From assembly GCA_019055375.1 (NCBI GenBank), contig JAHQIW010003793.1:29678-93677 (forward strand): a DNA stretch of 64,000 nucleotides, read 5' to 3'. This stretch comes from Parelaphostrongylus tenuis. Lineage: Eukaryota; Nematoda; Chromadorea; Rhabditida; Metastrongylidae. Positions 11,764 through 12,761 of this stretch are shown here, one piece after another. Position 1 is the first letter of the stretch. The number at the start of each line of letters is the position of its first letter. The notes under the pieces were generated by a model that saw only the letters and a program-made list of their open reading frames with translations, ran no database searches and was not told the origin of the DNA. Both the position numbers and the translations under genes were made by a program.

Positions 11764-12058
11764 ATACCTCTGCTATCGGCCGCTCTTTTGCAGACCCGCT
11801 CAAACGTCAATCTGATAAGGATATGACATGTTTTGAGCCGCTAGGTCTAGTGCTATATAGGCTCCTATTTGGCCCTATGGGACTCATCGTTGCACCCTCC
11901 CTCGGTTCGACGAACCCTTGAGGCTAAATAATCCTATAAAGGAATCGACACCAAGTAAAAAATTATCATCCAAGTAGGATGATGGTATATCACTGACCTT
12001 GTGGTGACCGGCAGTCGAGTTTGCGGCTTTTATGACGATCATAGCTCTGCTTTCGATC
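11764..12058 (-). repeat. Inverted, decayed copy of the 284-bp hammerhead unit
   Basis: The reverse complement of this stretch aligns with the plus-strand unit at 12118-12401. Shared landmarks are AAAGCCGCAA(A/G)CTCGACTGCC, GATAATTTTTTACT/GATTATTATTTTTTACT, the CCTATATAGCACTAGACCTA segment and CATATCCTTATCAGA. The hammerhead core on this strand (about 11893-11847) is damaged. CUGAUGA has lost or changed its second and first bases (reads AACGAUGA), and the invariant GAAA is CAAA. Stem II and stem III remain recognisable. It joins the plus-strand copy head to head near 12055, so the locus is a partial palindrome. Confidence 0.75.
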
Positions 12059-12074
12059 GACGGAATCGAGAGAA

Positions 12075-12124
12075 GGTGATACTGATGAGTCCCAATAGGA
12101 CGAAATAGGCGCCTATATAGCACT
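12075..12124 (+). ncRNA. Hammerhead ribozyme 1, type I (12-kb unit)
   Basis: The core reads CTGATGA (12082-12088), stem II GTCC/GGAC (12089-12092 with 12098-12101) closing loop CAATA, then GAAA (12102-12105). Helix III is the palindrome ATAGGCGCCTAT (12105-12116). The cleavage triplet is A-U-A with the predicted cut after 12117. Helix I pairs GGTGATA (12075-12081) with TAGCACT (12118-12124) with one mismatch. All invariant core bases are present. With a palindromic helix III the monomer hairpin has a small loop and a dimer would pair fully. Confidence 0.85.
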
Positions 12125-12357
12125 AGACCTATCGGCTCAAAATATGTCATATCCTTATCAGAGTAAATCGTTTTGGGCGGGTTGTAAAAGAGCGGTCGAT
12201 AGCAGAGGTATGCTTCATTATAAAAGCCGCAAGCTCGACTGCCGGTCACCACAACGTCAGGTAATACCATCATGCGACTTGGGTGATTATTATTTTTTAC
12301 TCGGCATCGATCCTTTAGAGAATTATTCGGCCTCAAGAGATCGACGGAACCGAGGGA

Positions 12358-12409
12358 TGGTGCTGCTGATGAGTTCCAATAGGACGAAATAGGCGCCTAT
12401 ATAGCACTA
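12358..12409 (+). ncRNA. Hammerhead ribozyme 2, type I (12-kb unit)
   Basis: The core reads CTGATGA (12366-12372), stem II GTTC/GGAC with loop CAATA, GAAA (12386-12389) and helix III ATAGGCGCCTAT, with a predicted cut after 12401. Helix I pairs TGGTGCTG (12358-12365) with TAGCACTA (12402-12409) over eight positions with two G-U pairs. The mismatch of copy 1 is a G-C pair here, so the helix is better preserved than in copy 1. No core base is missing. Confidence 0.88.
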
Positions 12410-12761
12410 GACCTATCGGCTCAAAAAATGTCATATCCTTAGATTTTGATTTAAACAAACTTAGTCTTCACGAGGAGATATTTGAACACTGCTGAAGACT
12501 CTTTCTTAAGTGTGCTTTTGGTAAGAAGAACGCCCACTTGTCCTGAAATCTCCACTTTTCGTTGCGAATTATGTGGAATACTATTAGCTTTCTGTGAATA
12601 TGAATCGCGTATTCATTTTTTTGATTCGTACTCGAGAAAGCGTTCATACTAGACTATGAGTCACTAAAATCGCTCATAACTTGATAAATGGAAGTTTCAG
12701 TGTTGGGTATGGTTTGTAAAAAAACTTGCATACAATGTATTAAGAACGAAAAGAAAGTTAC

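Follow-up and report, generated by a model that had tools for sequence, protein, structure and literature searches.

Head-to-head insertions of a hammerhead-bearing 284-nt repeat in a nematode genome and their likeness to Penelope-like elements

Introduction

What is the short repeat with two hammerhead ribozymes that lies in a stretch of the genome of the nematode Parelaphostrongylus tenuis, and which enzyme could have inserted it? The stretch analysed here, referred to as the window, comprises 64,000 nt (NCBI GenBank assembly GCA_019055375.1, contig JAHQIW010003793.1, positions 29,678 to 93,677, forward strand). From its letters alone, an earlier note had described the repeat as a retrozyme-like tandem unit. 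The enzyme moving animal retrozymes was left open in their 2020 description (PMC7229834). The reading proposed here, to which we give a probability of about 0.8, is that the 284-nt unit is a metazoan-type retrozyme inserted by the machinery of Penelope-like elements (PLEs), with cDNA primed from both target strands on a single RNA, circular or multimeric. Since the retrozyme and PLE copies of this genome bear a common insertion scar of several features, the question of the mover becomes testable.

Results

The insertion in the window

The repeat is a single insertion (11764-12441) formed by a minus-strand arm and a plus-strand arm placed head-to-head, with the following features. A and B denote two putative start sites of reverse transcription, and the hairpin limits are approximate, being taken from the unit fold of an extant relative.

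11764..12056, minus strand: minus arm, about 1.03 unit (~293 nt); outer end 11764 at start site B, unit position 95
about 11840..11899, minus strand: hammerhead of the minus arm, decayed at G12 and in the C3/U4 region
12052..12058, no strand assigned: head-to-head junction of the arms, whose matches overlap by 2 nt, within TCGA
12055..12441, plus strand: plus arm, about 1.36 unit (~387 nt); outer end 12441 at start site A, unit position 39
12076..12123, plus strand: type I hammerhead copy 1, one helix I mismatch; predicted cleavage 12117/12118; 20.3 bits
12118..12401, plus strand: one 284-nt unit, delimited by consecutive cleavage sites; predicted RNA monomer
12134..12184, plus strand: predicted hairpin with site A in its loop (unit ~17-67)
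12193..12243, plus strand: predicted hairpin with site B in its loop (unit ~76-126)
12360..12407, plus strand: type I hammerhead copy 2, complete; predicted cleavage 12401/12402; 25.0 bits

Thus, the outer ends of the window copy are B and A. The tandem repeat that the earlier note had placed at 11764..12440 exists as a direct repeat (12055-12157 and 12339-12441, 93% identity), but it is only a part of the element, which ends at 12441. Likewise, the inverted third copy is present and decayed at C3/U4 and G12 (with C for G12), but it is the other arm rather than a separate repeat. The window copy is judged to be old because its two arms are only 0.849 identical.

Two cores of the type CUGAUGA-stem II-GAAA, each with a pairing helix I, were found 284 bases apart as the note had reported (C3 at 12082 and 12366), with a four-pair stem III closed by GCGC and a helix I of six pairs. 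In copy 1, helix I (GUGAUA/UAGCAC) contains a single mismatch; that of copy 2 (GUGCUG/UAGCAC) is fully paired, one of its pairs being G-U. The second copy does restore the pair that is lost in the first, and copy 1 is probably impaired by its mismatch. A longer stem III (AUAGG...CCUAU) with cleavage at UC was rejected, as it leaves helix I unpaired, while the short AUAG/GCGC/CUAU stem III is compatible with all helices.

In a search of 1,301 bases, Rfam Hammerhead_1 (RF00163) matched both direct copies, copy 2 at 25.0 bits with E 0.0021 and copy 1 at 20.3 bits with E 0.077. In this check, of the kind proposed in the note, both scores were below the gathering score of 34 bits, and a scan of the whole window at that threshold gave no hammerhead. 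The window by itself is a weak case, suggestive of a hammerhead and no more; the matter was settled in favour of one by the genome-wide family.

A dispersed family of hammerhead-bearing units

The 481.5-Mb assembly (5,105 contigs) was searched with the ribozyme model and with the unit. With Hammerhead_1, 74 of 119,811 candidates were scored, giving at least 31 matches with E <= 0.001, of which at least 20 were above the cut-off. With the 284-nt unit, 40 of 2,669 candidates were scored, and the genome-wide count called for by the note came to at least 136 matches, a lower bound. In addition, the 42-nt ribozyme core with up to two mismatches was found at 1,908 places, versus 0 for the reversed pattern.

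Seventy-three loci were fetched, the window included, six of them being duplicates. Without these six, the core was intact in 114 of 138 ribozymes, and all 14 pairs form in 31 of 63 distinct parsed ribozymes. Among these 63 sequences, the stem III pair 15.2-16.2 is T-A in 47, C-G in 10 and T-G in 2, and it is unpaired in four (C-A in 3, T-T in 1). The other helix pairs vary little and compensatory support rests mainly on this pair.

The copy number, the target duplications described below, the conserved ribozyme core and the compensatory pairs bear out the note's assignment and give good support to a non-autonomous retroelement that carries a hammerhead, of the metazoan retrozyme kind. Its transcripts would cleave themselves to give a 284-nt RNA. 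As for the claim that the element is, or recently was, active, it holds for other family members and not for the old window copy: the array at locus L039 and the reference array, on another contig, are 100% identical after rounding, which points to recent activity of the family.

Arrays of five or more units (C435, C407) and the decay of the window copy could also suggest a satellite-like tandem array that carries a relic hammerhead and owes its spread to recombination, without retrotransposition. This is highly unlikely given the dispersed loci with individual target duplications and fixed ends, as well as the identity of the L039 array to that of another locus.

Order of the arms, outer ends and target duplications

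Among the first 100 listed of the 1,908 ribozyme places, opposite-strand neighbours within 1.5 kb followed the order minus-then-plus in 20 of 20 cases (P = 1.9e-6), and tandem neighbours were spaced by 281-285 bases. In the same set, 38 of 58 groups were on a single strand only, where a mate with more than two mismatches would escape.

Outer ends were mapped at 67 loci, 43 of them two-armed and 24 one-armed, some with several tandem units. A target duplication was scored in 38 of the 67, with a length of 8-20 bp (12 or 13 bp in 22 of the 38) and an A+T content of 74% compared with 60% in the flanking sequence. The outer 3' ends of these 38 loci fall into two classes, the limits of which were fixed after the ends had been seen: 35 of 62 lie at site A (unit 33-52) and 24 at site B (unit 85-101), with 3 elsewhere. 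The two sites are about 50 nt apart, and in most cases A falls 38-46 nt past the ribozyme cut.

The two sites are used one per side. Two-armed insertions with a duplication combine A and B in 21 of 24 cases (1 A/A, 2 with other ends), when 44% would be expected from independent choice of the ends (P = 1.2e-5). The 14 one-armed insertions with a duplication end at A in 12 and at B in 2, and the 10 one-armed ones without end at A in 4, at B in 1 and elsewhere in 5.

Inverted arms flanked by target duplications at many loci are also what a fold-back or MITE-like (miniature inverted-repeat transposable element) DNA transposon would leave, the arms being terminal inverted repeats moved by a transposase. 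However, the ends of the two arms differ by about 50 nt (A versus B) in those 21 of 24 insertions, the arms are unequal in length and inner position, the 24 one-armed loci and those with several tandem units do not fit, and ribozyme pairing is partly maintained by compensatory change. A transposase-moved element is therefore very improbable.

A second alternative is that a long interspersed nuclear element (LINE), e.g., of the RTE type, mobilises an ordinary metazoan retrozyme by target-primed reverse transcription, with the inverted arm produced by twin priming. Target duplications of this length are compatible with LINEs, and the window has open frames (16217-16756, 18162-18857 and 47311-47889) which resemble remnants of RTE-type LINEs, none of them with a Pfam match. 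Moreover, Nematostella retrozyme repeats with 15-bp duplications have been likened to LINEs (PMC4918200). Nevertheless, twin priming predicts no pair of fixed internal starts used one per side, as seen in 21 of 24 insertions, and paired ends also occur in two PLE families of this genome (see below), so that we consider a LINE an unlikely mover.

Two observations on single loci are added here. Four one-armed copies (L019, L026, L043, L048) have their 5' ends within ~18 nt upstream of the ribozyme cleavage site, perhaps due to a stop of reverse transcription near the ligation point. Loci L010 and L012 (C500, C2892) have equal flanks and retrozyme inserts of matched length 589 versus 642 nt, being alleles or duplicates.

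A common template for both arms

The relationship between the two arms was studied in eight alignment columns whose alleles split the family about evenly and which were picked after a 38-column comparison. The set comprised 58 insertions, 36 of them two-armed, after omission of 15 of the 73 loci that were duplicates, complex or old. Agreement was seen in 178 of 192 comparisons between the opposite arms of an insertion and in 380 of 394 between tandem units of one arm, as opposed to 52.9% for different insertions, and the value for opposite arms was reached in 0 of 2,000 permutations. The contrast was weaker in the broader 38-column set with only the 6 duplicates omitted (837 of 1,101 for opposite arms versus 65% between insertions).

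Many arms extend past the ribozyme cut, which indicates that the template was not a cleaved linear monomer. The template would be a circle or else a multimer left uncut, between which the data cannot distinguish.

At 32 hand-picked loci of the 43 two-armed ones, the inner arm ends were unrelated, with a circular difference of 22-142 of a possible 142. The arms overlap by 1-5 nt at 14 of these 32 junctions, abut at 2 and have 1-119 nt between the matched parts at 16. The longest junction insert, at L059 (~1530-1648), is a 119-nt A/C-rich sequence between retrozyme arms that looks as if a polymerase had added it without a template.

These junctions bear on the possibility that the head-to-head form arises by fold-back self-priming of a single cDNA rather than by priming from both target strands. 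Self-priming on the antisense template has been proposed for head-to-head rotifer PLE copies with palindromic junctions (PMC3846280). Here, the inner ends are spread over the unit without the near-zero differences that fold-back gives, and start sites lie next to the duplication at both outer ends in 21 of 24 insertions, leaving fold-back only a slim chance compared with priming from both strands.

When an extant unit was folded as a circle, site A was placed in one hairpin loop and site B in the loop of the next hairpin. The predicted energy was -84.6 kcal/mol, compared with -63.5 (standard deviation 4.3) for 100 shuffles keeping base, not dinucleotide, content. Most pairs of both hairpins are kept in an alignment of 21 sequences, and a pair in the A hairpin varies between T-A (ten sequences), C-G (six), T-G (one) and an unpaired C-A (four). 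Conservation of the two predicted hairpins is suggestive only.

Penelope-like elements of the same genome

The window also contains a decayed head-to-head copy of a PLE, named here PLE-1:

55513..56979, minus strand: decayed PLE-1, minus arm; left limit not mapped
56989..58337, plus strand: decayed PLE-1, plus arm, with a presumed GIY-YIG endonuclease remnant near 57725; relatives' matches stop at ~58281 or 58330-58337

The remnant near 57725, which we take to be GIY-YIG-like from its motif, has no Pfam match when taken alone. The family is abundant (at least 112 matches with 40 of 5,097 candidates scored), and a copy related to PLE-1 (L076) has a GIY-YIG match with E 4e-4, just below the curated cut-off. 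A second family, PLE-2, is present in L051. Uninterrupted open reading frames (ORFs) at L136 (721 aa) and L139 (800 aa), one per PLE family, match RVT_1 and GIY-YIG above the Pfam cut-offs. In both families, a minimal hammerhead-like motif without stem III was read by eye. The retrozyme itself does not qualify as a PLE, as its 284-nt unit lacks reverse transcriptase and GIY-YIG and the open frame overlapping the window copy (11884-12396, minus strand) has no Pfam match. Eight window ORFs in all were compared with Pfam, with no match.

The 3' ends of PLE-1 fall sharply at two places, 56-69 and 100-108 nt past the predicted cut. Fifteen pairs, hand-picked as a minus arm left of a plus arm and so testing the end sites and not the order, were A/B in 12, A/A in 1 and B with another end in 2. 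Duplications of 11-13 bp were found in 12 of the 15, 5 exact and 7 with one mismatch.

For PLE-2, the 3' ends lie ~71-76 and 110-118 nt past the predicted cut, and the order was minus-then-plus in 6 of 6 pairs. Four of the six are A/B (C2209, C2590, C2681, C1092), one has B with another end, and one is C2153. One end of C2209 was placed by eye, a difference in poly-T length having halted the automatic match, and no duplication was found there by script. Duplications are exact 12-bp repeats in C2590, C2681 and C2, and 13 bp with one mismatch in C1092. The insertion at C2153 (L122, L123) has nearly identical flanks at both ends, and looks like a palindromic contig or an inverted duplication.

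By eye, the tails of PLE-1 and PLE-2 (L078-L097, L120-L135) are alike around TGCCGAGGTT.ATAGA.AGTCG..CTT..GAATTG. In about half of the retrozyme loci, AGTCG also stands shortly before site B (unit 76-83), column 78 being A in 31 and G in 32 insertions; this likeness between PLE tails and retrozyme is without statistical support. Furthermore, a divergent retrozyme (L051 799-1396, ~73% identical) lies ~600 nt upstream of a same-strand PLE-2 endonuclease remnant (~2000), by chance or by common origin.

Other features

A tRNA-like gene (33.6 bits) lies at 7708-7781 of the window, minus strand. Elsewhere in the genome, an SL1-like spliced-leader gene array was seen (G000:C3131 160-24504, period ~568 bp). 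The SL1 spliced-leader 22-mer occurs in this array, with an exact match in L074, in keeping with a nematode genome; Rfam SL1 scores reach up to 47 bits, below the family cut-off of 75.

Discussion

A proposed route of insertion

Three features are common to the retrozyme, PLE-1 and PLE-2: head-to-head arms, start sites ~42-50 nt apart and duplications of ~12 bp. In most two-armed insertions of each of the three, there is one start site per side. Since elements of one genome carry the same insertion features, insertion of the retrozyme by PLE-type machinery is proposed.

The family, its target duplications, the two end sites and their use one per side, the order of the arms, the alleles common to both arms and the paired ends of two PLE families are read directly from sequence; RNA cleavage, circles, nicks and a PLE protein as the agent are inferred in the route that follows. 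Tandem transcripts would cleave themselves into 284-nt monomers by means of the type I hammerhead, and a host ligase may close these into circles, by analogy with published retrozymes. A PLE endonuclease would nick AT-rich DNA twice, ~12 bp apart, after which each 3' end would serve as a primer on the retrozyme RNA, cDNA starting at loop A from one of them and at loop B, ~50 nt further, from the other. Each cDNA may continue past the cleavage site, round the circle or along the multimer. The ends of the two cDNAs would then be joined, with homology that is slight or absent. The expected product is a pair of head-to-head arms between duplications of mostly 12-13 bp.

Several results weigh against this account. 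In the window, no target duplication is recognisable and the arm-to-arm identity of 0.849 is below the median with other arms, 0.870. Judged by raw identity, only 3 of 29 insertions had a partner arm that no other arm surpassed; we attribute these low values to later mutation and to the ease with which multi-unit arms match, an explanation that falls short of proof. In the family, 29 of the 67 loci, the window copy included, have no scored duplication, and the 19 two-armed ones among them are A/B in 6, A/A in 2 and with an end outside both classes in 11. With regard to the PLEs, site A is 33-52 nt from the ribozyme cut in the retrozyme compared with 56-69 in PLE-1 and 71-76 in PLE-2. The start-site regions of retrozyme and PLE-1 had no detectable similarity (666 of 1,000 shuffles scored as well), and the comparison with PLE-2 pieces gave two weak loci not beyond chance (best E 0.36), no third family having been looked for. 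Recognition would therefore be structural or by a third family.

A broader proposal, to which we give even odds, is that a complete integration of the PLE type always involves both target strands reacting on a single RNA, cDNA starting at A from one strand and at B from the other, the retrozyme being a minimal circular-RNA parasite reduced to a ribozyme and two start-site hairpins. This rule of one start site per strand would explain in a simple way both the head-to-head form of PLE copies and the presence of the tail on one end only.

Comparison with known systems

Animal retrozymes and the idea of PLEs as their movers are already known: PLEs were named strong candidates on the basis of shared hammerheads, tandem copies and co-occurrence (PMC7229834). 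In the literature, as far as covered by titles and the start of abstracts, and with most subscription papers outside the search, no nematode retrozyme or paired insertion ends were reported.

The plant retrozymes with long terminal repeats (LTRs) are, like the present element, non-autonomous and hammerhead-bearing, with a circular RNA model, but they are described with type III hammerheads, LTRs, a primer-binding site and polypurine tract (PBS/PPT) and 4-bp duplications, whereas here the hammerhead is of type I and the duplications are longer (PMC4918200, PMC7229834). Schistosoma W-elements are also hammerhead-bearing, satellite-like repeats of a parasitic worm, likened here by description only (PMC8490949).

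Closer are the metazoan retrozymes without LTRs, which share with this family the type I hammerhead, the multicopy state, the range from monomers to multimers and the target duplications; the nematode unit of 284 nt is inside their published range of 170-400 nt (PMC7229834). In the parts of that account covered here, neither head-to-head insertions nor paired start sites are described, and 'inverted' and 'nematod' appear 0 times in its main text.

With respect to PLEs, the retrozyme differs in that it encodes no reverse transcriptase or endonuclease, has a hammerhead with stem III and has no detectable sequence in common with the start-site region of PLE-1. On the other hand, the Poseidon PLE protein of Anolis, as described, starts cDNA at two adjacent internal sites, the stretch between them being an optional 'tail', and both target strands are extended; its principal start lies 111-118 nt inside the ORF, with the hammerhead cutting at +26 (PMC11167929), from which a start-to-cut distance of ~85-92 nt can be computed. 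In rotifers, head-to-head is the commonest arrangement of PLE copies, one of the inverted pseudo-LTRs (pLTRs) may carry a 31-bp tail, and target duplications are 8-10 bp long in the described examples (PMC3846280). The retrozyme of P. tenuis and these PLEs (PMC11167929, PMC3846280) are alike in having two adjacent internal starts with an optional tail, inverted ends that stand head-to-head and of which one has the tail, short target duplications, a hammerhead of their own upstream of the start sites and, as proposed for the retrozyme, extension of both target strands.
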